Positions 9,076-58,157 of a stretch of DNA of 64,000 bases are shown in pieces. The position numbers and the translations under genes are program-made. The notes beneath the pieces are model-generated. The model was not told the origin of the DNA and ran no database searches. It saw only the letters and a list, made by a program, of their open reading frames with translations. Where the stretch lies: contig NC_091137.1 of the NCBI RefSeq assembly GCF_041381155.1, positions 13,883,765 to 13,947,764 of the forward strand, read 5' to 3'. Positions within the stretch are counted from its first letter, which is position 1, and each line of letters begins with the position of its first letter. The DNA comes from Argopecten irradians (lineage: Eukaryota > Mollusca > Bivalvia > Pectinida > Pectinidae).

Positions 9076-9285
9076 CTATCCTCGTCGTATACAGTTGTTC
9101 ACACAACTTCGATACTGTGGGTAACAACGTCGACAGCGCCTTAAGATTTGTAAACATCTCCGTCGACAGAGAGCTAAAGGAGCGGGACCTTTGTAGTACA
9201 CCCAGGCATCCATTTCACGTTGGGCCAGAGTCGTGAGGAACATAGTGGATATAATCACAATGCTCAAGATAAAGGCGATCTTCAT
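9076..9285 (-). CDS. secreted Arg-rich six-Cys peptide, copy 1 (shortest central loop)
   Basis: This 69-residue precursor has a hydrophobic signal peptide of about 21 residues ending TTLA. The mature part is about 48 residues with 11 Arg, 1 Lys and 2 acidic residues (net about +10). Its cysteines at 40, 44, 51, 54, 61 and 65 give C-x3-C-x6-C-x2-C-x6-C-x3-C, the same mirror frame as the other copies but with the shortest centre (N=2). The C-terminus is RRG, so the last Gly could serve as an amidation donor. It is the most diverged member: its signal lacks the acidic 'E/D-Ala' end, and no 5'UTR intron is evident. A TATA box (CTATAAATAG on the minus strand, 9357-9366) lies about 72 bp before the ATG. 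A possible polyadenylation signal is at 8971-8976. An antimicrobial role is inferred from charge, cysteines and secretion; I recognise no named family. Confidence 0.82.
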   Translation of the reverse strand: MKIAFILSIVIISTMFLTTLAQREMDAWVYYKGPAPLALCRRRCLQILRRCRRCYPQYRSCVNNCIRRG

Positions 9286-9356
9286 ATTGGCGAAACTAAA
9301 ACGTAATATTATATTTAGTTAGCTAGTTGTACCTCATAACGAATACAAATGGATAT

Positions 9357-9366
9357 CTATTTATAG
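9357..9366 (-). promoter_or_regulatory. TATA box of copy 1
   Basis: CTATAAATAG on the minus strand matches the TATA consensus closely. It would place the start site about 45 nt before the ATG with no intron between, unlike the other members. Confidence 0.5.
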
Positions 9367-9399
9367 CAACACATTGTTTCGATTTCTTTGTCGTGAAAA

Positions 9400-11580
9400 A
9401 ACGTACTTGATTTCTGACATTATAGCCATTTATAAAAATGCTGATGTAATACTAGTGTTTTACCAAGCAACCCTGAATTAGTATTTAACTTAAGCTAACA
9501 AAATCCCTATCTTTTTAAATCATTCAGCTATGAATGTTCATAACGAATCTGTCCAGCCTTTGAATAAGACAAGTTCCAAACAAAACCATGATACCATATA
9601 TCGAGGTTACACAAAGTTCTGTATGGGATTTAATATACACAGTAATTATATAATACATACAAAGGGCAAGCTTTAGCAACTGTAACTTTTAAACAAGACC
9701 TTACATATGCTAAAGTTTTAAAACTTCGATCAAAGAAAATGATATGTCAGCACTCTCATTCAACATCGCATGCATGAAATCCTCTTTTAAAAGTTTTCTT
9801 TCAATGCAATTATAAAAAATGAAGTGAATAAATTAACGAAATGCCATCATTTACGTTGTGCAAATAATGCTTGAATATTCATTATGAATAATGAGCCTCG
9901 ATCTGTCCACTCCATTACCCACTATGCTGTTACACATAGGTCGATTGCTTTCTTAATCGAATGAACATCATGACGGTTGATTACACTTTAACTTATCAAC
10001 TAAATCTTTATATTTAGTTTATTTGTTGCCTTTATCACAAGACACCAAAACCACCAAGCAGTTTAGACTAAGCCAACTTATATGTGCCGCCACAAGCAAA
10101 GTCCATGTAACCTGGTCGGTTACTCAAAACATGCGTCTAAGATTATTTCGGGATTCTGAAACTTATCATAGATATAATCGAATTGATGGGATTTATCGAT
10201 ACACAGTTTGTTCAATATTTATACAAAAAGAGTTGGAAGAAACATGTAATTATGACAAATATTTATATCATTAACAGGGAAAAGCCGAAAAATTAAAACG
10301 TGCTGGATAGGTTTTTTTGTTTTGTTTCTGCAAACTATTTATTATATACACAAAATTATTTATAATGATATATATATAATAATTTATACACAAAACTTTA
10401 TTACTTTAAACAAATCGAAATACCTTTAACAAATATAAAAAAATGATTAATGCAATATGAGCAAAAACATAGGAAGGCTATTTTCAATTTCTGATATCTA
10501 AACACACTAGTTATATCAGTTGAAATATGGCTATTGTTTTTGAAATATTCGATTTTCATTATTTATGGTTTTTTCATATTCACTTACTGGTCTAATATGA
10601 AATAAATAAGCAGTTTTCAGAGATTTTCTATCAATTTGTTCTTAGACAGTGTATAGTTGTTCCTTTAAATCTTTTCATATACATTTGAAATATGTTGATT
10701 CCATTTTGCCTCATCAATTAGTGAAAGACCAAGATAAATAGGTATTTTATTTTCATCAATCGGATTATTATAAACATCTATACTATAAATTGTCATTGGT
10801 AAATTTGACGGCTTTTCACCAAAAAGGAATTTCTGTCAAATTAATTAATATTAACAAACTTGACAGCACTTTATCTCAACATGCTACATGTTTCAGGTGT
10901 CTAGGCATTTCAGAGTTCAACAAGAAGTTGTTTAAAGATTTAAGGATTTTGGTCATTTATGTCAGCATGCTTACATATACCTCATATTAGGTCTCTGGGC
11001 CTAGGCCTTCTAGAACTTGAGAAGGAGAACTTCTTGAACTATCGAAAAAATAGCACCTTTGAACTTTGAACCTTATGTCCATACGGAAGTTTTACAGAAA
11101 AAATGTTATTTGCTCTAATTTTGATTCTACATAACATATAAAAAACAGAAAGAAATTTGTCAAGCCGTTAAACGAGATATTTACATAATAAATTCATAAA
11201 ACATGAAGTCAGGTCATAGCGGCCATATAGTGGATTTTTAAACAACATAAAAATGCTGCTGTCACACCTTCAACTCATGTCCTACAATATGGTGACATGT
11301 TCCATTTCGGAGATCCTTTGTATATACCTTTCTGCGCAGAAGAATAATAAAAACAGAAAAACACAGTAGATCTTTTCTTCCATATTTGAAACGCCCTTAT
11401 TACACAGATTCTGTTTTATCAGGATTAAATTTGTCGTATCATTTACATATTAGTATTATTGACATCACATGACTAACTTTGAGCTAATTCATGCGGAGTA
11501 CTGTCACATAAACCATACAAGAAAGTATCATCGCCAAATGTTTTAACCATACGCCTTCTAGCTTCGCGCTAGGGGGAATT
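9400..11580. other. AT-rich intergenic DNA, no gene recognised
   Basis: The short open frames near 10023-10274 and 10790-10990 lack signal peptides, domains or repeats. Nothing else can be supported. Confidence 0.5.
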
Positions 11581-11583
11581 TCT

Positions 11584-11650: not shown

Positions 11651-11776
11651 ACACTACTCTCGCCCAGTTAAATTTGGTTCCATAGACCACTCCAAGCGAA
11701 AGTTATACGAGATTGAAAGGCTTCGTTGGAGACAGAGCCTTGGTTGTTCGGTGTTCCGTGGCGAACACGTCTGAAA

Positions 11777-11925: not shown

Positions 11926-12713
11926 CTATCACCCTGTTGCAATGAAATATAAATGAACAGAAATTATCAAGCAAAGCTACATAGCATTTTAGCACAATAC
12001 TGCGATATGATATAAATGAAATACAATAAACATAGCTACATGATAGTATTTTAGCACAATATTACAATATGAATGAACTACATTTAAGCAAGGCTACGTA
12101 GTATTTTAGCACAATACTACGAAGTGATATCAATGAACTATAATTAAACGTAGCTACATAATAGTATTTAAGGACAACACTACAATATGAATAACTACAA
12201 TTATTTACAAATCTTCATGGTAGTAAATGCATTTTTGGCTTTTCCATCATTTAACAGAACAGATATCCTCAGATAATTGTACTACAGGAACTTGCAGAGT
12301 ACTTGACTAGACATGTATAACATTTCATGAGATACTTCTCCCCTTCTTGTACTGTGATATGTGTTTTTTGTTGTTGTTGTTACTACAAGCTATAAAGGGG
12401 CATGATGGATATGGGTCCACATCGCAGATGGCAGATATAGTAAAATTTTAGGGAAAGGTCCAGATTACAGTAAGAAGTATATAGAGGCTATTTCCCCAGG
12501 GAATTAATTAAGTTATCCAAACTATTTACATTTGCTACATTTCTTTAATTGTAAAGGTATGTCAGAAGTCAACCCGATCATCAAAATTAATCAATGGGTA
12601 GACCCCGATAAACGATGGGGCACAATTACAATTTAAATCTGTAAGGCTGCACTTTAAATATGGTGTCACATAACCGAGCCAATCCAATTAAAGTTAGCAC
12701 TGCAGAGGCATGG

Positions 12714-14210
12714 TCATCCACGCTACACCAGTCAGGCTGTGATAATATTGAAAGGTGTATGTCATCCACGCTACACCAGTCAGGCTGTGATAATGGTGAC
12801 AGGTGTATGTCATCCACGCTACACCAGTCAGGCTGTGATAATAGTGACAGGTGTATGTCATCCACGCTACACAGCAGTCAGGCTGTGATAATAGTGACAG
12901 GTGTATGTCATCCACGCTACACCAGTCAGGCTGTGATAATATTTGACAGGTGTATGTCATCCACGCTACACCAGTCAGGCTGTGATAATAGTGACAGGTG
13001 TATGTCATCCACGCTACACCAGTCAGGCTGTGATAATAGTGACAGGTGTATGTCATCCACGCTACAGCAGTCAGGCTGTGATAATAGTGACAGGTGTATG
13101 TCATCCACGCTACACCAGTCAGGCTGTGATAATAGTGACAGGGTGTATGTCATCCACGCTACACCAGTCAGGCTGTGATAATAGTGACAGGTGTATGTCA
13201 TCCACGCTACACCAGTCAGGCTGTGATAATAGTGACAGGTGTATGTCATCCACGCTACACAGTCAGGCTGTGATAATAGTGACAGGTGTATGTCATCCAC
13301 GCTACACGAGTCAGGCTGTGATAATAGTGACAGGTGTATGTCATCCACGCTACAGCAGTCAGGCTGTGATAATAGTGACAGGTGTATGTCATCCACGCTA
13401 CACCAGTCAGGCTGTGATAATAGTGACAGGTGTATGTCATCCACGCTACAGCAGTCAGGCTGTGATAATAGTGACAGGTGTATGTCATCCACGCTACACC
13501 AGTCAGGCTGTGATAATAGTGACAGGTGTATGTCATCCACGCTACACCAGTCAGGCTGTGATAATGGTGACAGGTGTATGTCATCCACGCTACACCAGTC
13601 AGGCTGTGATAATATTGACAGGTGTATGTCATCCACGCTACACCAGTCAGGCTGTGATAATATTGACAGGTGTATGTCATCCACGCTGACAGTGTACACC
13701 AGTCAGGCTGTGATAATATTGACAGGTGTATGTCATCCACGCTACACCAGTCAGGCTGTGATAATATTGACAGGTGTATGTCATCCACGCTACACCAGTC
13801 AGGCTGTGATAATAGTGACAGGTGTATGTCATCCACGCTTCACCAGTCAGGCTGTGATAATATTGACAGGTGTATGTCATCCACGCTACACCAGTCAGGC
13901 TGTGATAATAGTGACAGGTGTATGTCATCCACGCTACACCAGTCAGGCTGTGATAATAGTGACAGGTGTATGTCATCCACGCTACACCAGTCAGGCTGTG
14001 ATAATATTGACAGGTGTATGTCATCCACGCTACACCAGTCAGGCTGTGATAATAGTGACAGGTGTATGTCATCCACGCTACAGCAGTCAGGCTGTGATAA
14101 TAGTGACAGGTGTATGTCATCCACGCTACACCAGTCAGGCTGTGATAATATTGACAGGTGTATGTCATCCACGCTACACCACTCAGACTCTGATAATGGT
14201 GACAGGTGTA
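12714..14210. repeat. minisatellite, 48-bp unit, about 31 near-identical copies
   Basis: The unit (for example 'caccagtcaggctgtgataa' then 'tagtgacaggtgtatgtcat' then 'ccacgcta') is 48 bp, a multiple of three. Several frames therefore stay open on both strands as artefactual repeats. Copies differ at a few sites (accag/agcag; atagtg/atattg/atggtg) and by 1-7 bp indels that break every frame. The variant order could define higher-order units. I see no evidence of a protein. Confidence 0.92.
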
Positions 14211-14339
14211 TACCTTATCAACGACAGCGAGCACTGTAGAGGCCTTCCAATGGGGGTAAATGGGGTTCGTCATAGGAGAATTTGCCATTTGGGGTACGCG
14301 CATTGTACCATACTGTCCTCAGGACAGCCTCGCTAATAC

Positions 14340-15140: not shown

Positions 15141-15377
15141 TCATCCAACGACCCTCTGACGTCTTCGTCCACACCTCGACAGACATGCGAAGAGACGTTG
15201 ACGACAACTTCTAGAATGACGACAACGCCTAAACGCAAGATAACATCTGCCTCTACAGTTTTCCCTGTGGGGTATGGTAGGACGATATCCCCAGCGGGCC
15301 TCTGTTTCAGTTGGAAGCAAAACTAGAAGCAAGAGTGTGGATAAGATAGCCACTGCTATCACGCTGGAGGTCCTCAT
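15141..15377 (-). CDS. secreted Arg-rich six-Cys peptide, copy 2
   Basis: This 78-residue precursor starts at the ATG at 15377. An upstream in-frame ATG at 15428 lies inside the intron and is rejected, because a 3' splice site (actgtttcag) ends at 15388, ten bases before the chosen ATG. The signal peptide is residues 1-27, with a Leu/Val-rich core followed by PTETEA. The mature part is 51 residues with 16 Arg and 1 Glu (net about +15). Cysteines at 41, 45, 52, 58, 65 and 69 give C-x3-C-x6-C-x5-C-x6-C-x3-C. It ends RVVG, a plausible amidation Gly. Its closest relative is copy 3: same orientation, same cysteine positions and a homologous promoter. Function is inferred as a cationic, possibly membrane-active host-defence peptide. 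Confidence 0.88.
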   Translation of the reverse strand: MRTSSVIAVAILSTLLLLVLLPTETEARWGYRPTIPHRENCRGRCYLAFRRCRHSRSCRQRLFACLSRCGRRRQRVVG

Positions 15378-15387: not shown

Positions 15388-16898
15388 CTGAAACAGTAAA
15401 CATGTGATTGAAAATCATAGCAAAGCACATTCTAGATGAATTATTAGCTTTATAATAAGCATTTTCGATTAGTAACAAAATTTAGATATAAATCGATTGA
15501 TGACATGATAACACGTATAAATGTCTTACAAATGGACACATCATTTCACAATTTGTAAATGTTTATTGCAAGGCCCAAAACTACCCTATTGTGATTTGCA
15601 TCTAAAATCTGATATTGACAGCATTGGAAATTGAAGACAAAATTAGAAACAACACGGTATTGATATGAACAAGAACGCTTTCATTACAATTTTGTACATT
15701 AATGGATGGGTAGGTTGGTTGGTACGTCTTACCGTCCTATTCACAGCTAAGGTCATTTAAGGACACCACCATTTGTATACATTTCATTTTGCGTGTAAAT
15801 ATATACATGTTTTGGTCGGCTGCGGTAACATTTTGTAACAGGACTCTTGCCATTTTTATAGTGATATTTCACTGAAGCATGCTGTCAAATACACCATATT
15901 AGTTTTATATACACAATTTCAGATTTGGCACAAATGATGTTTTAATCTCCTTTTGATAAACAAAACTCATATTCTATTCATGCAATATTGATTTTCAATG
16001 CAATACCATCCCAAGAATTGTATTTGACATCTACTATTCACTTCTTTTTCGTTTCAAAAGTTTTCTAGACATTAGGAAAAACAATATTTTTATGTTTAGT
16101 CATCACTGATTAACAGCATTATAGGAGTTTCAGTAGACGTCTAGTTAAAATGATACGTTAGATATTCTTTCTCTACCGATAAATGTTTAATTTCCTTTTA
16201 GATGGTTCAGTTCCGCAATCTTAGAAAGAATTTGTAAGCAGGTTTTGTCAATTGTACAACTGTAGCAGTTCAATGAACCATATGATAATATCGGATATCG
16301 ATTTGGCTAATTATGATCACAAGTGCAGTGTGCAATCAGGGTTTTTCACATAATTTTCAATACTAGTCTGTTGATGCATCTTTTCAATTAACGGCAATAC
16401 ATGCATTTTGTTGCGTCATTAAGAATGCATACAAGGTCGCAGTTTGTTTTAGCCCAGCTAGTTGCGCAAATATTGTATATTATTTATTTCTTTTGAAGTG
16501 ACAGTTAGTTATAGCTGATCTATAGCCGTAAACATTTTACCTTTCATTTATTTCTATTGACGTGACAGCTAATTATAGCTAAGTAAGTCGTGAAAGTATC
16601 CTTTTTCATTTCTGTCGAAGTGGCAGCTTATGATAGCTTAGCTAGACATGAGATGTTGTTTTAAAATTATTTTTATTAATGTGGCAGCTAAGTATTGCTG
16701 ATCTAGTCGCGAAAATGTTATACTATCCTTTCATAATATCAATGAACTATTAAGACTATTGATCAACTTGTTATGGATAACATGCTAATTACACAAACAT
16801 TTTAATGTTTGCTCTGTCATTAGTGATTTCCTTAAAAGGATCATGTTTCTATATAATATACAAGAGCCTATATCTGTCTAGTGAAGTTAAAAACGTAC
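15388..16898 (-). other. 5'UTR intron of copy 2
   Basis: Read on the minus strand, the donor is cag|gtacgt at 16898 and the acceptor is tgtttcag ending at 15388, giving 1,511 nt. The same donor context (gtacgttttta) and an almost identical acceptor occur in copy 3. The intron carries a degenerate tandem repeat at about 16485-16732. Splicing is predicted, not observed. Confidence 0.65.
16485..16732. repeat. degenerate tandem repeat, about 60-bp unit, four copies
   Basis: Four diverged units share 'gaagtgacagtta.ttatagctgatct' followed by 'gtcg.gaaa..t' and 'cctttcatttatttct'. The repeat lies inside the predicted intron of copy 2, about 170-410 bp from exon 1, so it may be either inert or an intronic regulatory array. 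Confidence 0.6.
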
Positions 16899-17000
16899 CT
16901 GTAGATTGGCGTCGGCTGTAAAATGATTATCGTCGGCAGAAATGCACTTATTTTATAACTTAGACTAGACCAATCATTTACACTGGATAGACACAAGACA
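16899..17000 (-). promoter_or_regulatory. promoter and non-coding exon 1 of copy 2
   Basis: On the minus strand the TATA box TATAAAA (16951-16957) lies 58 bp before the donor end of exon 1 at 16899. Upstream is 'gtaaatgattggtctagtct' with an inverted CCAAT. The block extends past 16990 ('gcactctgtcttg') and matches the region upstream of copy 3 over about 100 bp, with the same TATA-to-donor distance. Confidence 0.7.
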
Positions 17001-17004
17001 GAGT

Positions 17005-17985
17005 GCGCTAATTATGATACATTGCTAGTATCGTGTATACAATTATCACTTTGACAATAAAAAGAATAGTTATTTTACAAACAAAAACTTTCTGATTTTT
17101 AAGACAAAATGGCTGTGTTAATACTTCTTGGCACTGCATCGTACGACCTAACGTAAAATAATTTCTGTTAGAAATTGACTTGTTACTTATCCAAATTGAC
17201 ATCAAAACAGGAGATTAAACATTTTCATATTTATTTGATATAATGTTTCAGCCTAACACTGTTATAAAGCCAATGTATAGTGGATGGTTTTGCACTGACA
17301 TAAATATTGTTGTCTGTTTCATCACATTAATGAGTACTATTGCGTTAAAAAAAAGTATTGCTGAACATCAACGTTCTGAATTTCGATTTACTGACTTATC
17401 TAAATGTCTAACTTAGATTTAATCCTGATATCAACCCCAGGTCCTCTGTCCTCTAGCTGATATCTGGACCATCGGGCACATAATGAATGTGATATGAAAA
17501 TGGTAATATCTTAATATTCTTTCATATCACACGAAATAAGAATTCGGTTAAACGATTAAATATTTTGATAAAACGTATTTTTCCTCTAAATGAAATATTG
17601 TTTCGATAAACGAGATGTTCTTTCAATACGATAAAAAGAAATTTTGTATCGAGAAAACGTTAAAACAGGATAAAATTTGTTTCAATCTTTACAGTCAATG
17701 GGTTCCGTAGAGACTTGCGTATTGCCTTGACATATTTGAGACGATGTTATATCAATGTTTTTTTTTTTTTTTTTTTTTTTTAATCTTTATATAAAAAAGC
17801 AGATAACGGAAAACAGTGATGAAGTGGTTAAGGTACATGTATCTGATATTGCATCACGAGCCATCTAATATATGTGCCGTAACTGGGCGAAAATTTTGAC
17901 ATGCTATTTTTTCTTCATTTATCCTTTGAAAACCATAAGGTTTGATGAATTAAGCTTTGGAAACCATTCACATTGCTTCGGATGC
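17005..17985. other. intergenic, no gene recognised
   Basis: A small hairpin 'gtgatatgaaa...tttcatatcac' lies at about 17490-17531, and a T tract at about 17759-17781. No coding exon is supported. Confidence 0.5.
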
Positions 17986-17988
17986 CTT

Positions 17989-19897: not shown

Positions 19898-21920
19898 TTA
19901 AAGGGTTTGTGACACAAAAACCTTTTAATAAATTTTCTGATAGTTTGACCCCATCAATGATGGCTGATACACGTTTCACAGCACTCCGCAAAGCTGTTTG
20001 TCTATCTACTTTAGGGCAGTAAGGGTAAATTGCTGCGGCTGAGAAAACTTTAATGAGCTAGCCGGTCACGTGGTACCAAAGCGTCATCCGTTTCACCATG
20101 CTCTGCTGTCTGCTGTAGATACTGTATATTTACAGAGAAAAACTACAAAGTCTTCTAGTATTTTTTAAAATATCTACAGTAGAAAACAATGACAGTGATA
20201 TCCCTGCTTTGGGTTTTGTTCCGGACATTATCCCATACCAGTTTGACACTTTGATGAGCACTCATAATTCTCTTTCTACAAGAAGGGGGATAACATCGCC
20301 ATATGTTTCAGATACTGATCAAGAAAAGCAAGAAGGTAATGAAGAGGATCGGTTGACAAACACAGCTTGGGTTGTAATACACCTATTATTATTTTAATTT
20401 ATTGGCATTAAATATAGATGTGGATGCCTCCATGGGGATTCATTAGATAAATTATTTTCAATAATGAATATAATCTGTAATATATCTTACATAATTACAC
20501 TTTTTACATTAAAATAATCCATTGAAAACAATTAATTTCTCCTTTTATTACATTATATATATTTGTATAATTGATATCAGTGACTTACGACTTATATAAT
20601 TACTACACTAATTTTACATACCTACATATTACAAATATACATGTATTTCAATAAAATCTTTTTTAATCAACATCAATGACAACGATGTGTAATACACTTC
20701 ATTACTATGTCAATAAACAATTGTGAGAATTCAGTAAATGAGGATTATATTCTTGACAACAGAGGATTGTATAATAATGACATGGGTTACTACTGTGAGA
20801 CAAAGCTAATTACATGGTACAATTTCCAAAAGTCAATTTCTCCATTTTATGTTGTGGATACATATTTAGTTATATTTTTTATTTTCAACAGGTGTTAATG
20901 TGGTTTCTGTGATCCAATGGTTACGGAATCGGAATCTACGGTCTGCTGTCGTGAGATAAATGATATCAATTCTATAGTTTTCAATAAAAACTTCTCTGTA
21001 GATTGTTTATATTGTTATTAAAGATGCTCCACCGCCGACAGAGTATAAATGATATTCATCATTTGAACAAAAATTGGCGTTTAATCGTGTATATATATGC
21101 CTAATTAGCAAAAAATAACATAAAATAATTTAGTTCGCCTTTGGTGCATGCGCAATTATTACTTTATTCTATATATGATATAGTGCCACAGAATTTTTTC
21201 GGGATGCAATTAATTATTTTTCATATTTTTAACTTGAAGTAAAATAAGAAGTTCAAACTTTTCACGGTGGTAATGGTGTACATTAAGTAACTTTTGTAAC
21301 TGAAGACAAATACTAAATTGTCTGTTTCTGTTTTTGATAGTGAAAAAATATCATTTGTCAGCGGTGAAGCATCTTTAATTTTACCTATTGATATATTTAT
21401 TATTAACAAAATGTTACTTTTGTTGCAATATTTATATACATTACATCAATCCTCTTCTTGATATAATTCATTTATATGACTATACAGCCAGATAGTATTA
21501 CTGATATTATGCAATTATCTTTTTGATAATGTGTACTGTAGCATTGGTATGAGTAATTAAGCAGCAGGCCATGGTGAAGTCAGTAATTATAATATAAATG
21601 TACAATAAATACCATTATCAGGTCATATATTATAGGTCACCTTTTCAAACATGAATTGAATTGACCCTGAAGTAATTTAATGCCTCCAAATAAAACCCCA
21701 TTCACACAAATGATGATTTTCTGTCAGCTCAAACTTGACACTTGTGTAATGCAATCATGTATTTTAAATACTTTTTTTCTTTGAAAAGTGAAAGAACTTG
21801 TTTTAAAAAACTTATTTTATTTTAACTTTTGCCATCCCCATGGAGTGGGGTATTTCGTTGAACTTAAAGGGGGCCCAATCTACAGACAACTTATCATTTT
21901 TTGTGTCACAAACCCTTTAA
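19898..21920. mobile_element. 2.0-kb TTAA-flanked inverted-repeat element (piggyBac-like ends), non-autonomous
   Basis: The left end TTAA-AGGGTTTGTGACACAA (19898 onward) and the right end at 21898-21920 are identical over 23 bp in inverted orientation, including a TTAA at each edge. TTAA target duplication is characteristic of piggyBac-type insertion. No transposase frame is visible. The only coding-like piece is at about 20190-20385 (LGFVPDIIPYQFD...), which resembles a fragment of a transposon-associated or host exon I cannot name. A second MITE (21018-21378) is nested inside. The element lies between the promoter of copy 2 and the 3' end of copy 3. Confidence 0.6.
21018..21378 (-). repeat. 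MITE 'AAAGATGCTCC' family, full copy nested in the TTAA element
   Basis: The terminal inverted repeats are 'aaagatgctccaccgccgac' on the left and 'gtcagcggtgaagcatcttt' on the right. The interior is homologous, in reverse orientation, to the copies at 25.3, 53.1 and 57.1 kb (for example 'tactaaattgtctgtttctg', 'gtgtacattaagtaac'). There is no coding capacity. Confidence 0.75.
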
Positions 21921-23014: not shown

Positions 23015-23248
23015 TCATCCAAAGATTCTTCGTCGTCGATTACAAGCCGCCATACAAGATCGGAGGCGAGCGCCACAGTTGCTGGAAAAGCGACATCCCT
23101 TGAAGACCCTCGAGCACCTAATTCTACAGCCCAAGCCTGAGATTAGTCCTCCCCTTCGTCTGCCCCAGGCTTCAGTCTCAATCGGAGCTACAGCCAGTAG
23201 CAAGATTGTTGATAGTATTGCTATCGTAAATACGTTAGGGGTCTTCAT
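23015..23248 (-). CDS. secreted Arg-rich six-Cys peptide, copy 3
   Basis: This 77-residue precursor has signal residues 1-27 ending PIETEA. The mature part is 50 residues with 13 Arg, 1 Lys and no acidic residue (net about +14). Cysteines at 41, 45, 52, 58, 65 and 69 fall at exactly the positions of copy 2, giving N=5. It ends RIFG. The ATG is ten bases after a 3' splice site (tgtttcag|ctgcatcacc) almost identical to that of copy 2, which fixes the start. The long overlapping plus-strand frame is a shadow. Copies 2 and 3 are the most recent pair by architecture, although their mature residues differ greatly outside Cys and Arg. Confidence 0.9.
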   Translation of the reverse strand: MKTPNVFTIAILSTILLLAVAPIETEAWGRRRGGLISGLGCRIRCSRVFKGCRFSSNCGARLRSCMAACNRRRRIFG

Positions 23249-23258: not shown

Positions 23259-23826
23259 CTGAAACATTAAAAAAACTGCTTGAAAGCCCTAGCGAGAATT
23301 TTGTTTTGGATAAGTTGGTAATAATTTCAGAATACGCATTTATGGAATAATAAATTAATTGTTGAAAAGAGAAAGCAAACTAAATGTGAAAATATTAGGA
23401 ATATTGCCAAGACATGCGCCACCCTCCTACCACCCTCCTTTAGCATTTTCTAACAGTTGTTTATAGAAACATCGAATTAAGATATGATTCTAGACTACCT
23501 AATATATATATAAAAAAAATATAAAGAATACTATCTAATTGAAACCATGTTGAACAAAATGTCATGTGTGTTTTGTAATGAGGCTATGTACAGCTTATGG
23601 ACACCATTTCTGTTAGCGTCGAACAACTGAAATAACTTTTATTTTTGACCGTCGCAAGTATCCATACATATATCAACTTTTTATTTAACCAGTTTTTTTT
23701 ATTAGAAGGAAACAATCTTTTGAAAGAAGTGACTATTTTGTCGATTTATTTTCCCACGTTTTAAATAATAAAATGATGTTTTTGTAAATTATGCAAGAAC
23801 AATATTTAGAGAAGTTAAAAACGTAC
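23259..23826 (-). other. 5'UTR intron of copy 3
   Basis: Minus-strand donor cacag|gtacgtttt is at 23826 and acceptor tgtttcag ends at 23259, giving 568 nt. The first intron bases match those of copy 2. Splicing is predicted from sequence only. Confidence 0.7.
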
Positions 23827-23945
23827 CTGTGAGTTGGGGTTGATTTTCAGATTATTTTCCTCGGTAGACACGCACCTGTTTTATAGGTTAAACCAGACCC
23901 ATCATTTACGTAAACCTAAGACGGAGTGTCTTAATTATACATAAC
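23827..23945 (-). promoter_or_regulatory. promoter and non-coding exon 1 of copy 3
   Basis: Minus-strand CTATAAAAC (TATA at 23879-23885) is again 58 bp from the exon 1 end at 23827. The upstream segment 'acgtaaatgatgggtctggt' aligns with the copy 2 promoter, and so does the further upstream 'acactccgtctta'. Exon 1 itself is only loosely conserved. Confidence 0.72.
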
Positions 23946-25317: not shown

Positions 25318-25460
25318 ATCGCTGATGAGTGTTATTTGTATCTCTTTCAAAAAAGGAGCAGATGAAACAGCATTTTTCTTCAGTTACAAAAGTTACTTAC
25401 TTTATACCATTGTACTACCACTGAAAGGTTTGAGCTTCCTATTTTACTTCATGATAGTAC
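25318..25460 (+). repeat. truncated MITE of the 'AAAGATGCTCC' family
   Basis: The interior phrases 'aaaggagcagatgaaacagc', 'cagttacaaaagttacttac' and 'gtttgagcttcctattttac' match the interiors of the 53.1 and 57.1 kb copies. The terminal inverted repeats are lost or unrecognisable ('acatcgctgatga' may be the left remnant). Confidence 0.55.
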
Positions 25461-25978
25461 ATGCATTAAGAATGATAAATTGCGTCCCGCAAAAAGTTTA
25501 TGGCACTTTGCCTAATACTGAAAGTGCATCCACCAAAAGCAAAACAACTTTTCTTATGTTATTTTTGTGTTGATAATAATCAATTATATCCTTCAATAGA
25601 ACCGTCAAAATATTCCTTAATCTTAAAATATAAATGTGAAACTGTTTTTCTTAATGATGTGTTCTTCTGGGATTTCACTCCTAGATAAAATTGCTTTGAT
25701 ATTATGACATTAAAATATCAATAAATGTAAGAATTTGATATATGCAAAATTAGATTGTCATTGTTCCTTTGTGCCTATATTTTTAAACAGTGACTTTGAG
25801 AGAAAGTAACTGTTTGGTGCAAGGTTTGAGAATATGTCTTTCTTCGGTTTGAGAAGAGTTAACTTTTCTTCTTTCTAATTTGAATCATTTGTACTTTACC
25901 CTCAGGTTTACCAGTTGTGTGATATCAAAAATGGTCATGTAATAATTTCTAAGTATTTCAAGGACAAATAGAAGTCTT

Positions 25979-32520: not shown

Positions 32521-32754
32521 ATGAAGACGAGCTCAGTAGTTCTTATGGCTGTCATCGCCACCATTCTTCTGGTGGCGTTTATGCCTGAGGAAGTGGAAGC
32601 CCAGGGCTGGGGAGCTGGAGGAGGCTGGGGATGTAGGAGGAGATGTAGGAGGCGTTTGTGGCGATGTATCCGCAATAACTCCTGGTGGAGATGTATGCGT
32701 CGATTCAGAAGGTGTACTGGTGACTGTCGTGGAGGAGGTGGTGGATGGTGGTAG
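32521..32754 (+). CDS. secreted Arg/Trp/Gly-rich six-Cys peptide, copy 4
   Basis: This 77-residue precursor has signal residues 1-27 (MKTSSVV... to PEEVEA). The 50-residue mature part has 14 Arg, 1 Asp and 7 Trp (net about +13), with Gly/Trp-rich arms at both ends (GWGAGGGWG before the first Cys, GGGGGWW at the end). Cysteines at 38, 42, 49, 58, 65 and 69 give N=8. It is the only intact copy that does not end in Gly. The start is fixed by the acceptor twelve bases upstream (tattacag|ataagatcaagg). Possible polyadenylation signal: 32868-32873. The opposite-strand frames are shadows. Trp/Arg richness supports a membrane-active antimicrobial role by analogy; this is inference. Confidence 0.9.
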   Translation: MKTSSVVLMAVIATILLVAFMPEEVEAQGWGAGGGWGCRRRCRRRLWRCIRNNSWWRCMRRFRRCTGDCRGGGGGWW

Positions 32755-36719: not shown

Positions 36720-39580
36720 CAAGACACTTGATGTAAAAACAAACAGACATGGGCGAGTTCTCTTGGGTTGAGCAACGGTTTTATCATGTATGTGTTCTTC
36801 TGTTTCCAAAACGAGTATTTTAGAATTATAACTGTTAGCAAAACCGAAAAACAAATAGCTTTGCTTTAGTTTTGACATCTTCTGCACCCAGGAATCTAAT
36901 GAAATTTGATTGTATACATATAACATACTTTCGGATGTAACAGTAAAATATCAACATTACTTCCAATTCATTACACAATGTTTAAACTGATCCTTTAGAA
37001 ATAACGAATTGATTGTTATAAGCTGTCGCATGTTTGACATGCATTGTTGTCTAACACACATTGCGCTACTTATTTATAGGAAGGAAGGCGTTGTTGAATA
37101 TGAATGTATCCGAATGTAATACCGCCAAAACTTACATCTTCATGTTAGCGGATGACAAATAAAAAAGATTTATATACTGTATAGAAAGATAACCTGTTTG
37201 TATTTAATGTCAGGGTAAATTCAGATTGAGAACAGTTGTCAGTAGGTAAGATAATAGTGACAAAAGTATCCAGTAAACGTGGCTTCAATAAAACAAAATT
37301 TAACTATGGATACCGAACGATTCTGTTCTATCGGTCTGGCATTATAATTGAAAGTACTGCTTCATTTTCAGGTTCGCTTATATAAGTAACACTCAGCAGT
37401 TTAGCATGGATTAATGTCAGTGTAGATTAAACGACTGAAACACATTACGAGCAATAGCATTCCGTAGCGATTAAATAGTCTTTTTCCGACGTTTTTACAT
37501 CATTAATTTCATAGAAAAGTAGTTCCAAAGAAAGAGTCAATCAGACCGGCAACTGGTATGTATATATGTCAGTTGTTCACAGAAACGTGCGAGAGCCTTC
37601 ATCAAATGATGCCTTTTCTTATTTTCCTATTGCATTCTTTTCTTAATAATATTTTATACAATGTACATGTAACATGCTATCCAATAGTAATTTTCCTATG
37701 CTTTAGAAATACTGGAACGAACATATGAATACAGGTATAACTACAATATCAATAGCATTATTGTAGATGAGTTTACCAACAGAAACCACAGTTAACTAAT
37801 GTGTGTAAAAAGTTGATAAAAATGTATAAAAAAAAATTTTTTGTATATACTGTGAATTTATAGTCTAGCAAATTTTGAAGAATGCAATGGCTTCAGTATA
37901 TGTCTTCTAAACGAGTGTCAAACTAACCTCAGTAAGTCTTCGCATACACATACAAGCGTATATGTATACAAACCCATTTACGTTTGAAGCGATATATTGT
38001 CTATAATCAAAATAAATATTTTCTATCACAAAATGTGTTATAATCCAAATTCTGATATGAGATATAAACAATAATTCCATTGATACTTAAATATGCCAAT
38101 CAAATAATTAAAAACATTTTTTGGATATCATTAATTGTTCTCTTGTTACTATTATATCGATAAGTGTCAATAATGATTTATACAGTAATAACATCAGAAA
38201 AACTCATTATGGCAGCACGTGCAGCATATTGTAATAACGTGTAGTTTAAACCTCATAACAATAGGATATTGTACTAGTTTGGTAATAAATTAACGTAGTA
38301 ATTACACATTTAATTGACCTGAAACACGATATATTCTTAACCACTTACCGAGTAAAGCCATTACAATATATACAGTGCTGACACTCCATGGTGTACATGT
38401 ATATTACAGTAAATTCAAAATGTTGTTTTTAGATGTTTTATGTGTTTTACGTCTGCTTTATTTTGTTATTTATTTTTGCTTAACGTATCATGATTTCCAA
38501 CAATATGATAATGTGTACATATAGTAGAGATGAAAAACCACCATCATTATCCAGCAGATTGAGCTGAAGACAGTTACACATACAAACCAACTTACAAAAA
38601 TATCAACCAGAAAAATGATAGATAAATAAAACAATCTAGACATTAAGAATTTAGAAAAAAAAGAAATACACATTTTTATGACTAAGTAATCTTCACATCT
38701 CTGATACAGAAATCGTTCATAATATCTGTATGATTCTCAAATATAAACATTGCTACGAAATTAACATTTTCATAATAGGTATTGAATTCTAATTGATAAA
38801 TAGAGGTTCATGTAATATGATTTCAAAGAGATTATAGGGATCAACCAACTAAATAAAAAAAGACCTTCGAAATGGCCCCTGTGTATACAAGATTGAGCCC
38901 AGGATAGAATTTTAACCCGGCCGCTGATTGGCTGGCTAATTATGAATTTCAAAAGTAAAAATGTTTTCTGACAGGTAATTATTCCTAGATAACCATGATA
39001 TCAATTTGGAAATTCATATTGAGATTTAGGTTCAAAATATCAATTTTGATAATGAATAGGTAAAAACATTAGAATTTCAGGATTTTTTAGTGCAAAATGC
39101 GCCTGATTTCAATAAAGCTACCCTGGTTGGAGTTTGAGCAGAAGGACCCAAACTTTATTTTTCTATCTACATGTAGTGTTATATGAGAACCTAGACTTTA
39201 ATTATAGAACACAATACCTAACTAATATTTCTTTGTTTTAATAATACAGTACAAAACTTTAACAAAGTTTAACACTGTGGTCTATGTAAAATTATTTAGT
39301 TGGTTGCTCTCTATATATGAATTTATATATCTTTGAAAACATTTTTTTATTGAATGCTTACATGCTTTAAACGACATATTTTCTTGTGGCTTGGGGTAAC
39401 CTCAAGTCGGTTTTTAATACATTTGATTTTTTTCCTATTTTAACGACTAAATTTAAAAAGTTATTATTACCATAGATCGCTTTATATCTTCTAGATAAAA
39501 AGACAGTCCTTCCCTATATGAAATATGGTAATTTGTTACCTATCTATCATTCCTTTTTATATTTTCCCTATCGATCAATT
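36720..39580. other. intergenic, no gene recognised
   Basis: This is AT-rich DNA with no coding exon or clear repeat that I can delimit. It ends at the promoter of copy 5. Confidence 0.45.
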
Positions 39581-39709
39581 TCCCACGCCCTATATATATA
39601 CTTTTTGCCTCACACCATCTGCGTTTCACTCCATTTGTTGGGCGAGGTTCCGGATCGTTAGAAGTCACTGTTTGATCAGATCGTGGCCAGTCGAAGTACC
39701 GCGTTATCT
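39570..39709 (+). promoter_or_regulatory. promoter and non-coding exon 1 of copy 5
   Basis: 'atcaatttcccacgccc' runs directly into a TATATATATA box (39591-39600). A predicted exon 1 follows and ends at 39709 before the donor gtaagtaatta. The exon contains 'gaagtcactgtt'. The same order of motifs is found at 47625-47759 before the copy 6 pseudogene. 'GGGAAATTGAT' on the other strand resembles a kappaB half-site, which is speculative. Confidence 0.65.
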
Positions 39710-40753
39710 GTAAGTAATTACTTATAGAGATATTGCTAACACTTATATAGTTATACAAGTCTTGAATGTATTACGCATTGGTTGTCTTACTTATCTGATC
39801 CGTTTAGTTATGTAATAAGATGATGTCATAACTATCGTAAGTCACACATGTAATCATACTACTACATTGTAATTACAAGTAAATATATGTCCGTTATTAC
39901 TAGTCATGTAGTTCATTGGTAAAAGTTAACGATTCAAACAAGTAGTGTGGATAACAAGCATAAGGTCTTATAGAACACGCTTACAGAGACCATAAGTAAA
40001 GCTTACTTTTTATGAACAAAGAAACCCCAAATACTTATATTACTTCTTTCTAAACAATTGTGAGGACACAAAGTATGTATATTTGAAACCACACAGGCTT
40101 TGTGTACATATTTTTAAGGTATATAGAAACCTAATGTGATATCTGTGAAATAGTTGCCGAAAACATGACAACACATATCAAAATGCGGGTTTACATGGAA
40201 TTAGTAAGTCAGTTGTGTTCATTGGCAAATCACATCCACAATTAGATTTGATCACCGATTAAGCCTGTCATAGTTTTAAAGTGTGTAGGAACAGCTTATT
40301 ATAGTCAAATTTCGTAGAAGCAATTTGTGTGAATTGCAAATCAACGTGACCAACTTATCTCATGCGAGTTTAGATACGATTTCTGACAATATGCATTTCA
40401 ATTTACGGTAAAATAAAATCATCTAGATAGAAATAATGTTTTGTTCCAAAATAGGTGGAGACGAAATGCTGCAGATGTTAAGGGAATATCTTTGTTAGGG
40501 TAAACGTGTTTTCTTACCACACTACAACCTACCACACTACAACCTTGTGATTAAAGTTCTATTGGGAGGTATTACTCCCCAATTAATACAAATCAAATGA
40601 AACTTGCAGTCGCTGTAAATGTGTGTCTTAATGTGCTCATTGCTCATAAATTAGACATGTGTTTGAACAGTTACCTCTGAGTATTAATACATTGATAATA
40701 CAATGATTTTTGTGTGTGTGGTGTAAACTGTTTTTCTTTCTTTTGTGCCAAAG
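39710..40753 (+). other. 5'UTR intron of copy 5
   Basis: The donor atct|gtaagtaatt is at 39710 and a long pyrimidine tract with gtgccaaag ends at 40753, giving 1,044 nt. The acceptor is AAG rather than CAG; the identical 'gtgccaaag' is used in the 49 kb pseudogene. Confidence 0.65.
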
Positions 40754-40766: not shown

Positions 40767-41027
40767 ATGAAGAAAAGCCATATTGTTTACGTCGCTATTG
40801 TGGCCTCTATCTTATTGGTGTCGCTGATGTCACAAGAAGCAGAAGCTCAAACTTCATTCCTCGGTGCGGGGAACTGGTTTAGACCAGGCAGGCGATGTCA
40901 AAGACGGTGTCAAAGACAATTAAGGGTATGCCTACGACGTAGACTGTGGCCAGCTGTGTGTTATCGACAGTACTATATCTGTATGTGGCGCTGCCGTCGC
41001 CCTAGACTCCCCATCACAATAGGGTAA
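40767..41027 (+). CDS. secreted Arg-rich six-Cys peptide, copy 5
   Basis: This 86-residue precursor starts at 40767. An upstream in-frame ATG at 40710 lies before the acceptor and is rejected. Signal residues 1-27 run from MKKSHIVYV to SQEAEA. The mature part has 59 residues, 15 Arg and no acidic residue (net about +15), with cysteines at 44, 48, 55, 65, 72 and 76 (N=9, the longest loop). It has a 16-residue N-terminal arm and ends LPITIG, so an amidation Gly is available. The second helix segment is aromatic (YRQYYI, MWR). Possible polyadenylation signals lie at 41107-41112 and 41121-41126. It is closest to the 49 kb pseudogene by promoter, acceptor and sequence. Confidence 0.9.
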   Translation: MKKSHIVYVAIVASILLVSLMSQEAEAQTSFLGAGNWFRPGRRCQRRCQRQLRVCLRRRLWPAVCYRQYYICMWRCRRPRLPITIG

Positions 41028-45083: not shown

Positions 45084-45513
45084 CTTTAAAGACCAACATA
45101 CAACTATATTGAAAAGCAATTCAGAATCGATTATTTTTATGTCATACAGAAATCTTCCTTTTGTTATCCTGGAATATTTACGCAATGTAATTTGTATGAT
45201 TCTCATTTGCATGTAAACCATTTTTGCGACATGATAGGTATGAATGCTGTCTTTCAATATGTTTTTAAAAGGTGCTTAATTGATTTTGTTCATAGACCTT
45301 TAAAGACCAACATACAACTATATTGAAAAGCAATTCAGAATCGATTATTTTTATGTCATACAGAAATCTTCCTTTTGTTATCCTGGAATATTTACGCAAT
45401 GTAATTTGTATGATTCTCATTTGCATGTAAACCATTTTTGCGACATGATAGGTATGAATGCTGTCTTTCAATATGTTTTTAAAAGGTGCTTAATTGATTT
45501 TGTTCATAGACCT
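45084..45513. repeat. tandem duplication, two apparently identical 214-bp units
   Basis: Unit 1 (45084-45297) and unit 2 (45298-45511) read identically throughout by eye; both contain 'cagaatcgattatttttatg' and 'gcgacatgataggtatgaat' and end 'gttcatagacct'. The absence of visible differences in AT-rich intergenic DNA implies a very recent event or an assembly duplication. Confidence 0.85.
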
Positions 45514-47619: not shown

Positions 47620-47759
47620 TGGCCTACTTCCAATCAATCTCCTACACCCTATATATGCACTATTTGTCGCTTTTCAACTTCACTTTACTCTATTTGCTGG
47701 AAAAGGGTACGGTCGTAAGAAGTCACTGTTGACCAGAAAGCCTAGAAACCGTGTAAACT
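47620..47759 (+). promoter_or_regulatory. promoter and exon 1 belonging to the copy 6 pseudogene
   Basis: 'atcaatctcctacaccc' abuts TATATAT (47650-47656). A predicted non-coding exon follows, containing 'taagaagtcactgttgacca' and ending at 47759 before gtaagtaatta. It is homologous to the copy 5 promoter (39570-39709). An intact promoter before a broken coding exon could still yield a non-coding transcript. Confidence 0.6.
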
Positions 47760-47853
47760 GTAAGTAATTACGTACATAGGCATTTCATTTCAATTTACTT
47801 CTATAATTATGTACAGCTTTCCGTTTGTCAAACAAAGGACTCGTTTGACAGTT

Positions 47854-48404: not shown

Positions 48405-49089
48405 TTACATGAAAAACGTGTTCTGTTGGGCGCCCATTTACAGATTTATTTTACGAATTTGGCTATTTATGCTCTATGCTCGTTAATGGTAACTTGTAAC
48501 AGGAACATTTGTTTTACTTATGTGTGGGAGTTTGTTTGTACCATAAATATCAGGAGAAGACTGAGAAAGGCTATGCCTGATGTCTAATCCTATTGACAAT
48601 GATTATCTTTTGGCAATAAAATGTTTGGGAATTGAAAAAAATATCTATCATAAGAGTTTTAAAGAAGACAAAATACAAATCTGATGTGATCCATGGCTGA
48701 AATAAGAGGCGTTTTTTGCTATAGAAAATAACGTGAACATACTATTGATAATTAGTTAATTACCAATGCAGAAGATGATATCACTTGACTAGTGGGATGA
48801 TACATTCAACACAATGTATAAAACAAACACATCAACCACTTTGTGATACGCAAAATGCTACCCCAAGATTGATAATAAAACTATCTCATCGGTATAATGG
48901 TTAATGATAGATATTAGGACAATGCTAACGATGAATGTTTGGACTAACGGAATAATGAATGCATTATTAACATAAATCACAGACGTCAAGTGCCAATTAA
49001 AAGGTGGTAGTAAATACATGTGGAGCAGGGTGAACAATGTGTCGCTTTGTAAGTACTTGTCTTTATTGTTTTGTATTTTTGTGCCAAAG

Positions 49090-49316
49090 GTTCGAAGTCT
49101 TATCGGTTTTGTCACCATTGTGATCTCCATTTTATTGTTGTCGCTGATGCCCCAAGAAGCAGATGCCCATTTTCCACCGGGTTTGTTGGATCTAGTTGGT
49201 GGTGTCAAAGGAACTGCCTTAGACGATTTTATGAGTGCATACGACGTAGACCTTGGAATGTGTGCCTTCCACCGTACTACCGATGTCTCTTGCACTGTCG
49301 TCGTGCGATTGACTGA
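49090..49316 (+). pseudogene. six-Cys peptide pseudogene, copy 6 (start lost, frameshifted)
   Basis: It is homologous to copy 5. The acceptor gtgccaaag (ending 49089) is intact, but the segment that holds the ATG in copy 5 is deleted. The signal-peptide core (SILLLSLMPQEADA) is in one frame. The mature part is in the next frame (WWCQRNCLRRFYEC onward), so a one-base shift lies at about 49165-49180. All six cysteines survive in that second frame with spacing x3, x6, x8, x6, x3. It ends at TGA 49314-49316 with the residues RRAID, not Gly. Possible polyadenylation signal: 49483-49488. Decay is recent: the cysteine half has no stop codon. Confidence 0.8.
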
Positions 49317-49499
49317 TGGTAACAAACTCAAGCTGAAGCGTCATACAAAATAATCTCCGATTACGTTCACTGACATGTTTTTGAACATAAGATACTATTT
49401 GTGAGATTCGAACGTCTAACATTCAAGACAACATAAATATGTTGAATTGATATTAACAACTGTACTTTATTTAAACAATTCAAATAAAGCATTTTCACT

Positions 49500-53729: not shown

Positions 53730-53939
53730 ATGAAGAAAAGCAGCGTTGTTTTCGTTGCCATTTTGTCCGCTATTTTGTTGATATCGTTGATGCCTCAGGA
53801 GACGGATGCTATTGTTGGTCTGATATTATGTCTGAGAAGATGTGACAGGCGATTCCTGAGTTGCATCCAGAGTAACAGTTGGGGTTTTTGTAGGAGCAGA
53901 TTCATAAGATGCCGCAGGCTTTGCCTTTTTGCTGGTTAA
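53730..53939 (+). CDS. secreted Arg-rich six-Cys peptide, copy 7
   Basis: This 69-residue precursor starts at 53730. An upstream in-frame ATG at 53673 lies in the intron before the acceptor at 53710 and is rejected. Signal residues 1-27 run from MKKSSVVFV to PQETDA. The 42-residue mature part is the shortest and least basic, with 9 Arg and 1 Asp (net about +8). Cysteines at 34, 38, 45, 54, 61 and 65 give N=8, as in copy 4. It has only a six-residue hydrophobic arm (IVGLIL) before the first Cys and ends LFAG, so an amidation Gly is present. The central NSW matches copy 4's NNSWW. Possible polyadenylation signal: 54168-54173. Confidence 0.88.
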   Translation: MKKSSVVFVAILSAILLISLMPQETDAIVGLILCLRRCDRRFLSCIQSNSWGFCRSRFIRCRRLCLFAG

Positions 53940-56640: not shown

Positions 56641-56709
56641 CACCTGACCAGGTATAAACCCAGCAGGAATGTGTGTGACATCGCTTTACCACGGCAGTAT
56701 CAGTGGAAG
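56640..56709 (+). promoter_or_regulatory. possible promoter and exon 1 of the copy 8 pseudogene
   Basis: A TATAAA (56653-56658) is followed at 56 bp by a donor-like ggaag|gtcagt at 56710. The spacing matches the 58-60 bp class of copies 2-4. The exon sequence is not obviously homologous, so this is tentative. Confidence 0.35.
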
Positions 56710-57052
56710 GTCAGTTTGATTGGCAGTCAATTTTACGGTAGAATGCTTTAGAATGACCGAAATGACTACATATCTATTGATAAATATACCAAGTGGCAAT
56801 AATTTACACTCTACATTTAGTACTGCTGGTCGATCGACTTCTTACATTGACAAGACCTTTTGATTACATCCGAAATATTACACTCGGGTTGGTAGTAAAA
56901 TTCCATCACGTTTTTGCAAACATTTTCAAAGATGTACATTGTGTATTAGAGTCGTGACTACTTTTACTTAAAATGTAAGCTCAAGATAAGAGAGGCAACT
57001 CATGATATTTTCATTCAGACGAATGAATTATGACATATGATTTATTAAGCTC

Positions 57053-57409
57053 ATTAAATATGCTACACCGCTGACGCATTTGATTTTTTTCGCTATCAAA
57101 AACAGGAGTGGACAAATTGGTATTTTTTACAAATACAAAAGTTTAATTACCACTATTACCATTGAAAAGATTGAGCTTCCAATCTTACTTTAAGATAAAA
57201 ACAATTATTTGAGCCCCTAAAAAGTTCATGTCAGTATGTCCTATATGGAATAAGGTACTCTCTGCCCATTCCCTAAGAGCGAATTAGATAATTATATATA
57301 TATGTTTGGATTAATTAGACATATATATATATATATACACACGATTAAACATCAGTTATTGCTCAAATAATGAGTACCATTAATACTTAGTCGGCGATGG
57401 AGCATCTTC
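57053..57409 (+). repeat. MITE 'AAAGATGCTCC' family, older full copy
   Basis: The ends 'aaatatgctacaccgctgac' and 'gtcggcgatggagcatctt' flank an interior with 'tcaaaaacaggagtggacaa' and 'accactattaccattgaaaa'. More terminal mismatches than in the 53 kb copy suggest greater age. It lies in the putative intron of copy 8. Confidence 0.75.
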
Positions 57410-57928
57410 AAGTAATTGAATGACCGTGATTTTATGTTAAATATATATTTTTATATTAAAATGTTGACATACAGATTAAATCATAACAGAAAAACATGCA
57501 TTGAAATGATAAAATAAAGGTAGGTAATGTTTATTATAATTAATGGCAAATATAGCTTTATGGTGCCAAATATTCTATCTTAAAAATATCATAGCTCGAT
57601 TATCGTGAAAAATGGAAATATGTCAGTCATTCGCATATTATCTTCCTGTAACTAACGCAATTCTGATCTATTTTCATTATTGTGAGAAATTTTGTTACTT
57701 CTTACTCTTTTTTGTGATAATATTAATGAAAAAAATAATGCGTGTAATCTAACGAGGTCATAAAATGAAAGAATTGTTTTAGAAAAGGTTTCTTTATTTA
57801 TAACGACTCGTTATGAAATATCTCAGACAATTATATTAGTTACAATCCTCAATAAACATGACGATGTTTGAAATTTAAATAATAACATTTATTTTTGTTT
57901 TCTTTGTTTTTTTTAAGAAATATACAAA

Positions 57929-58157
57929 ATGAAGAAAAATACTGGCGTTTTTTTTGCGCAATCGTGGCCGCTGTTTTACTGGTGTCATTGATGTCGCACG
58001 TGGTGTTTGCTTAAAGACCGGCCAGATATGTCCCACCGGTATTTACGTATCATGACAGATGCCGCAACCATTTCCAACTCTAACGATCCGTCTTACGGGA
58101 TGTTTGGGACAGTACTACAATTGTCTCTGGCGCTGTAATTATCCCCCAATACTTTAA
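57929..58157 (+). pseudogene. six-Cys peptide pseudogene, copy 8 (heavily broken)
   Basis: An ATG (57929) follows a 3' splice site (ttttttaag, 57917) and starts MKKNTGVF like its relatives. A frame change in the T8 run (about 57950) moves the signal core (AAVLLVSLMS) into another frame. A TAA at 58012-58014 lies exactly at the usual signal cleavage point. A further in-frame TAA and shift break the first helix. The last half is still readable in a third frame: TGT codons at 58101, 58122 and 58134 keep the diagnostic C-x6-C-x3-C (CLGQYYNC, LWRC), ending at TAA 58155-58157. Possible polyadenylation signal: 58208-58213. It is clearly non-functional and resembles copy 5 in the YY/LWRC half. Confidence 0.75.

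Follow-up and report, generated by a model that had tools for sequence, protein, structure and literature searches.

Helical hairpins held together by disulfide bonds are known from several groups of organisms, and some of them carry a cysteine arrangement close to the one discussed here. Nemertean neurotoxin B-IV has cysteines at positions 12, 16, 23, 26, 37, 41, 48 and 52 (PMC6410017 Table 4), and its nuclear magnetic resonance (NMR) structure (PDB 1VIB) is a helical hairpin with helices 13-26 and 33-49 and four disulfides. A loop Trp and Arg residues are reported as important in B-IV, where basic residues matter, and its sibling B-I is reported with six cysteines (PMC6410017). Nemertide beta-1 likewise has four disulfides (PMC5864730). 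Aphid BCR3 follows the pattern CX3CX6CX21-25CX6CX3C, with unknown bonding (PMC9604261 Table 3); at 5 µM it kept E. coli from forming colonies and made the membrane more permeable (PMC6594739). The ascidian turgencins A and B combine a C1-C6/C2-C5/C3-C4 ladder and a helix-loop-helix-like structure with amidation and antibacterial activity (PMC7024374). The present analysis concerns a 64,000-nucleotide stretch of the Argopecten irradians genome (contig NC_091137.1, positions 13,883,765 to 13,947,764 of the forward strand), called the window throughout, in which a cluster of genes encodes arginine-rich peptides with a mirror-symmetric frame of six cysteines. The explanation favoured here, to which we give a somewhat better than even chance, is that they are clustered, fast-diversifying secreted antimicrobial (host-defence) peptides built as laddered helical hairpins.

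Six intact open reading frames (ORFs), each a single coding exon, and two broken copies make up the cluster within the window. They are listed with their length in amino acids (aa) and with N, the number of residues between the third and fourth cysteines (C3 and C4).

9076..9285, minus strand: g1, intact gene, 69 aa, N = 2, C-terminal Gly
15141..15377, minus strand: g2, intact gene, 78 aa, N = 5, C-terminal Gly
23015..23248, minus strand: g3, intact gene, 77 aa, N = 5, C-terminal Gly
32521..32754, plus strand: g4, intact gene, 77 aa, N = 8, C-terminus GGGGGWW
40767..41027, plus strand: g5, intact gene, 86 aa, N = 9, C-terminal Gly
about 49093..49313, plus strand: g6psi, broken copy, with a signal-like part at 49093-49167 and a six-Cys core at 49203-49298 in differing frames
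53730..53939, plus strand: g7, intact gene, 69 aa, N = 8, C-terminal Gly
about 57928..58157, plus strand: g8psi, broken copy, with a signal remnant at 57952-57996 and a C-terminal half frame at 58101-58136

All six intact ORFs share the frame C-x3-C-x6-C-xN-C-x6-C-x3-C, in which N is 2, 5, 5, 8, 9 and 8 (g1-g5, g7). An earlier note made from the letters of the window, referred to here as the sequence-only reading, had described six intact and two broken genes for secreted peptides with this frame, whose outer spacings never change in the intact genes and in which only N varies; the ORFs and their spacings bear this out, 3-6-N-6-3 being read in each of the six. The first three genes (g1-g3) lie on the minus strand and the remainder on the plus strand. 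A strict search for the frame with N of 1-14 in the six frames of the window returned 7 matches (the six intact genes and g6psi), and none was obtained in 200 simulated first-order Markov windows of equal length. The six-cysteine gene family in the window is confirmed as real. In g6psi, the whole Cys frame (N = 8) is legible in one reading frame and the signal-like part in another; no ATG stands at the homologous place, and an ORF at 49018-49353, whose ATG lies further upstream, crosses the signal-like part. Only the C-terminal half of the Cys frame is left in g8psi.

The encoded peptides are strongly basic. When the mature part is taken from residue 28 onward, with the end of the signal judged by eye, the net charge amounts to +11, +15, +14, +13, +15 and +8 (g1-g5, g7), matching the range of about +8 to +15 estimated earlier, and the six mature window peptides together hold 77 Arg, 2 Lys and 3 acidic residues. 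The earlier assumption of secretion is likewise consistent with the signal-like N-terminus recognised by eye in every intact ORF; a nuclear protamine-like protein was considered and rejected because of these N-termini. Five of the six window genes end in Gly, compared with 15 of the 329 window ORFs of at least 30 aa (those five included), which suggests C-terminal amidation of most short members. Mean identity over 15 pairs is 45% in the signal-like part versus 25% among the non-Cys core residues. A hydrophobic residue stands four residues after C2 (L or F) and four after C4 (Y, L or F) in each of the seven window cores. Trp or Tyr occupies the position C3+6 in all six members with N of at least 7, among them g6psi and the two long genes described below, and g1, g2 and g3, with N of 2 or 5, have no loop aromatic.

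The flanks were scanned for the frame with N of 1-30 over 100 kb on each side and a further 40 kb on the left, giving 304 kb in total (GC content 34.9%). The cluster had been placed at 9076..58157 in the sequence-only reading; the window genes do lie at or inside this span, which proved too short as a limit, because two more intact genes stand to the left.

L011:3672-4175 (window coordinates -46328 to -45822), plus strand: long gene, 168 aa, N = 7, about 46 kb outside the window
L013:8722-9099 (window coordinates -21278 to -20898), plus strand: long gene, 126 aa, N = 10, about 21 kb outside the window
C4:6192155-6192367 (L002), same contig, 7.7 Mb away: degraded copy whose core contains a stop, without C6 and with a C-terminal Gly

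The products of both long genes begin with a signal-like N-terminus, continue with an acidic spacer rich in Gly (41% Gly and net charge -3 in L011; 26% Gly and net charge -7 in L013) and close with a strongly basic C-terminal part that bears the frame (net charge +14 and +18, respectively). Their C-terminal residue is not Gly. Since their cores share little with the others beyond cysteines and composition, their membership rests on frame, position and gene layout. No further copies of the frame, including versions with inner spacings of 5-7, were found in the 304 kb scanned. Genome searches with g1, g3, g4 and g5 returned cluster members and the one degraded copy. The L013 protein matched itself only, and that of L011 matched itself and 11 other places (E-values 2.1e-5 to 0.45), mostly against the Gly-rich spacer. 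Because the searches with short genes missed both long genes, divergent members elsewhere may be missed as well. Within the reach of these searches, the family is a single locus that holds 8 intact members.

The Gly-rich spacers bring in a different explanation, in which the products would be basic peptides with a structural or chaperone-like task after secretion, for example in mucus, shell matrix or egg coat, their disulfides giving stability and their Arg binding acidic polymers. A composition like that of the two spacers is also seen in matrix proteins. The six short members, however, contain no repeats, and amidation-type ends combined with hypervariable cores are more typical of effectors, so that we consider a structural role very improbable.

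The predicted fold is in line with the antimicrobial reading. AlphaFold2 predicts a helix-turn-helix for both members folded, as expected by the sequence-only reading, which had proposed a helical hairpin and not a beta fold. With the six full proteins and g1 first, helices span residues 36-50 and 52-68 around C40/44/51 and C54/61/65, the mean predicted local distance difference test (pLDDT) values being 64, 84, 85 and 80 for residues 31-40, 41-50, 51-60 and 61-69, and the predicted template modelling score (pTM) 0.38. With the seven mature cores and g4 first, helices span residues 10-26 and 29-44 around C12/16/23 and C32/39/43, with pLDDT of 82, 91, 88 and 63 in the blocks from 11-20 to 41-50 and pTM of 0.51. 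The earlier idea that the three cysteines of each half lie on one helix face is supported by a geometry model, a crude rigid-body construction of two antiparallel ideal helices in which all 15 Cys pairings were compared. The ladder C1-C6, C2-C5, C3-C4 is the only unstrained pairing of the 15 (0.00 Å), with the next best at 1.50 Å. This is also the ladder proposed in the sequence-only reading; its geometry holds without strain, while the disulfide map itself is one that we infer. The peptides are probably antiparallel helical hairpins with a three-rung ladder.

Another disulfide map or a non-helical fold, with the symmetry incidental, would be compatible with an antimicrobial role as well. The pairing C1-C5/C2-C6/C3-C4 is strained by just 1.50 Å in the crude model, and the alignments behind the AlphaFold2 models are shallow. 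Such an alternative is nevertheless rather unlikely, given that the palindromic spacing is kept in all six intact window genes, in g6psi and in the two long genes, whose other residues differ, and that the hairpin fold of B-IV goes with this very frame (PMC6410017).

The antimicrobial reading draws together most of these features: a shared signal, fixed cysteines, a free surface, duplication, pseudogenes, near-exclusive use of Arg and amidation-type ends all fit antimicrobial effectors. It is further encouraged by BCR3, which has the same outer frame, and by the turgencins, which have the ladder and are amidated, as both are antibacterial. In the mechanism proposed, the signal peptide would be removed after secretion, the C-terminal Gly of most short members would be converted to an amide, and the two long members would additionally lose the acidic Gly-rich spacer that precedes their basic C-terminal part. 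What remains, the mature part, would then fold into a pair of antiparallel helices, with N residues as the turn between them, held by the ladder and with one hydrophobic residue per helix packing between the rungs. Such a rigid, Arg-covered rod may bind lipopolysaccharide, phospholipid and perhaps nucleic acid as anionic surfaces of microbes, and the bound peptide would permeabilise or aggregate the microbes.

Several observations weigh against this reading. By frame, the nearest relative with a solved structure is B-IV, which is a crustacean neurotoxin and not an antimicrobial. AlphaFold2 confidence falls at the outer rung (64 for residues 31-40 of g1, 63 for residues 41-50 of g4), the models rest on 6-7 sequences, and a Foldseek search gave no confident match to a solved structure (g1 had 4 rows, at E 4.4-9.2, and g4 had none). 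In a control of the geometry, a ladder could also be built with 12 of 60 random inner spacings, so that the rigid-body model separates pairings, not spacings. Similarity of the cores beyond cysteines and composition gives z of 0.9-4.5 in six short-short pairs and of -1.5 to 3.0 in 12 long-short pairs, and the positions C2+4 and C4+4 are only partly kept in the two long members (Y and R in one, A and A in the other). In many pairs, synonymous sites have reached saturation or allow no computation, and for this reason the ratio of nonsynonymous to synonymous rates (dN/dS) yields no estimate of positive selection. Additionally, the TATA/exon-1 block described below is recognised for four of the eight window copies, and none is recognised for the other four.

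The profile search for relatives proposed with the sequence-only reading gave no significant family match in the collections searched. Pfam-A held nothing above its curated cut-off for the six window proteins, the seven mature cores and the two long proteins. In a set of 5.8 billion proteins, family profile A1 produced 1420 candidates, none at E ≤ 10, and g7 produced no candidate, the 5-residue-word filter being weak for short variable peptides and gene callers being liable to miss them; the set does hold bivalve proteins, and for this reason the blank result says something. Among PDB chains, the only matches to family profiles were vicilin peptides, none of them significant: 3 of 3 for profile A2 (E 1.6-5.2) and 4 of 4 for profile A3 (E 0.21-8.9). 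One of these vicilin peptides is named hairpinin, and the others are presumably hairpins too. Searches of the PDB chains with g4, A2, g5 and A3 returned no B-IV up to E 10, the presence of 1VIB in the chain set being unconfirmed. Among the matches listed, judged by titles and abstract starts and with subscription journals outside the scope, no publication on this peptide family was found; of the papers listed for spaced cysteines, just the one on BCR4 and BCR3 is relevant. A term look-up for strongylocins gave no entry. On the evidence of these comparisons it is an orphan family, whose frame is itself already known from B-IV (with an inner pair added) and from BCR3 (with a longer loop).

The arrangement of the genes upstream of the coding exon was also considered. 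A pyrimidine-rich stretch followed by AG, read by eye, lies 10-19 bases before the ATG in all six window genes, and AG is found 2 bases (L011) and 7 bases (L013) before the ATG of the long genes. We read this stretch as a splice acceptor in the 5' untranslated region (5'UTR) of all intact genes. Candidate promoters with a non-coding exon 1 were recognised at four places.

16840..17015, minus strand: candidate promoter and non-coding exon 1 of g2, with TATA at 16945-16958 and donor CAG/GTACGT in 16883-16904
23773..23938, minus strand: candidate promoter and non-coding exon 1 of g3, with TATA at 23873-23886 and donor in 23811-23833
39574..39724, plus strand: candidate promoter and non-coding exon 1 of g5, with TATA at 39588-39601 and donor CT/GTAAGT in 39705-39721
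47633..47774, plus strand: candidate promoter and non-coding exon 1 of g6psi, with a TATA-like element at 47647-47660 and donor in 47755-47771

The g2 and g3 blocks are 71% identical, and with a profile of the pair no further match turns up in the window at E ≤ 5; those of g5 and g6psi are 72% identical, and their pair profile matches other places in the window only at E 0.5-4.7. These blocks are predicted to comprise a promoter and a non-coding first exon, followed by introns of roughly 0.5-1.5 kb. Of the blocks shared upstream of g7 and g8psi, which looked like promoters, the first was rejected and not used, since it also matches 21018-21379 and 25317-25566 of the window and is therefore taken as a repeat element. 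A 129-base block that precedes the L011 gene by about 2.6 kb and the L013 gene by about 2.9 kb (71% identical between the two, E 2e-8) could be a promoter with first exon or a repeat.

Other features of the region were noted along the way. A 48-bp satellite at 12713-14211 (31 copies, 96% matches) is open in several frames on both strands and thereby mimics long ORFs, and at 7071-8690 there is an array built of 50-bp units that also shows periods of 70, 120, 150 and 220, among others. At 45084-45513, a 214-bp unit is tandemly duplicated with 100% identity, which points to a very recent event or an assembly artefact. A tRNA-like match of 44 bits with an odd anticodon loop, at 2470-2543, is perhaps a tRNA-derived short interspersed nuclear element (SINE). 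The segment 5700-6239 is a fragment of a tyrosine-recombinase transposon, which we take to be Crypton-like; its Pfam Phage_integrase match is below the cut-off, and it has 18 relatives in the protein set, of which the 3 with an organism name are all bivalve (Argopecten and two Saccostrea), which by itself makes a bivalve source probable. Downstream of the window, closely similar reading frames at L017:5439-5906, L018:1511-1978 and L023:881-1435, all on the minus strand, look by eye like cytoplasmic tails of a receptor family.

The cluster adds an unclassified gene family, with 8 intact members found at one locus, in the form of a compact and genetically variable hairpin: the rungs are fixed, the turn ranges from 2 to 10 residues and the surface is free to change. 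If the peptides are active, they would offer a compact antibiotic scaffold with arginine only, and the natural series of N values would be a ready structure-activity set.

In comparing the family with known systems, BCR3, the turgencins, acrorhagin I and others were considered by description, not by sequence. The sequence-only reading had credited known helical hairpins with two rungs and had not recognised a three-rung, arginine-coated version, a view contradicted by B-IV, BCR3 and the turgencins. CHCH proteins with twin C-x9-C are helical hairpins with mirror cysteines and two disulfides that undergo mitochondrial import; their spacing of x9 differs from the 3-6-N-6-3 found here together with signal-like N-termini. 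In plant alpha-hairpinins, a C-x3-C stands on each helix. These are helix-loop-helix peptides with four cysteines (PMC11591084), and they differ, the vicilin-buried hairpinins included, in having two disulfides and in being plant products, whereas the window peptides have six cysteines. Acrorhagin I and, by AlphaFold2 models, two octocoral peptides are other disulfide-stabilised helical hairpins (PMC11896702).

Myticalins of mussels are antimicrobial peptides with a high content of Pro, Arg and Tyr; they are secreted, come from a multigene family that includes pseudogenes, and have a 5'UTR intron right before the ATG, a layout shared up to the coding exon (PMC5577615). Unlike the window peptides, which have six cysteines and no acidic tail, they are Cys-free and carry an anionic C-terminal extension into a third exon. 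The turgencins resemble the family in the C-x3-C at both ends and in the C-terminal amide, which the window peptides would share. Their frame is described as C-x3-C-x4-C-x7/8-C-x2-C-x3-C, with inner spacings of x4/x2 versus x6/x6 here; they have fewer basic residues, and their helices are unstable in water.

BCR3 is closer in frame, its outer CX3CX6C and CX6CX3C halves being identical in the pattern given (PMC9604261). This likeness suggests that the scallop peptides could serve in symbiont control: released at an epithelium, they would make resident bacteria permeable or hold them in check instead of killing invaders, a role of the kind proposed for the BCR peptides of aphids. This explanation differs from the antimicrobial one in role, not in chemistry. 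BCR3 permeabilises E. coli (PMC6594739), and both groups are small secreted orphan peptides without known relatives outside their own group. The BCR3 loop, however, has 21-25 residues versus 2-9 in the window and 7 and 10 outside it, and BCR3 is expressed in bacteriocytes of an insect; a symbiont-control role seems quite unlikely to us, and host defence remains the favoured function.

The nearest solved structure by frame is that of nemertean neurotoxin B-IV, from the group of B-neurotoxins and beta-nemertides (Cerebratulus, Lineus); B-IV contains the outer frame of the window genes. Without its inner pair 26/37, B-IV reads C-x3-C-x6-C-x17-C-x6-C-x3-C, and its ladder sums of 64, 64, 64 and 63 suggest, from register, a ladder pairing. 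It differs from the window peptides, which have six cysteines in all six cases, by the extra inner pair Cys26/Cys37 (C-x2-C-x10-C-x3-C) and by 17 residues between the frame positions C3 and C4. The loop aromatic has a possible counterpart in Trp-30 of B-IV, at the third frame Cys +7 compared with +6 here. The fold is likely similar to that of B-toxins.

These parallels raise another possibility: on the same hairpin scaffold, the peptides could serve as toxins or deterrents that target ion channels in predators, competitors or parasites, much as the nemertean B-neurotoxins affect crustaceans. The frame, the hairpin known from NMR, the six cysteines of B-I and the importance of loop Trp and Arg, echoed by the aromatic of all six members with longer turns, speak for it. 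Conversely, the peptides contain hardly any Lys, whereas several lysines are among the B-IV residues given in PMC6410017, the three members with the shortest turns are without the aromatic, and the PDB chain searches gave no B-IV match up to E 10. Bivalves are not known as venom users. A toxin function is therefore regarded as unlikely, and the antimicrobial reading is retained.

A more far-reaching and only tentative scenario, rather unlikely on present evidence, would trace the window family and the B-neurotoxins of nemerteans back to a single lophotrochozoan ancestor, a hairpin of innate defence with a mirror-frame disulfide ladder. The window branch would have kept six cysteines and become Arg-coated defence peptides, while the nemertean branch would have gained an inner fourth rung and turned into a neurotoxin; the loop aromatic would be a relic, and in BCR3 the frame would have been put to use a third time, probably by convergence. 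Whatever their descent, one palindromic Cys spacing links nemertean B-toxins, aphid BCR3 and this family, which are not set side by side in the parts of the literature found, and a simple rule is proposed from them, namely that mirror spacing signifies an antiparallel ladder.

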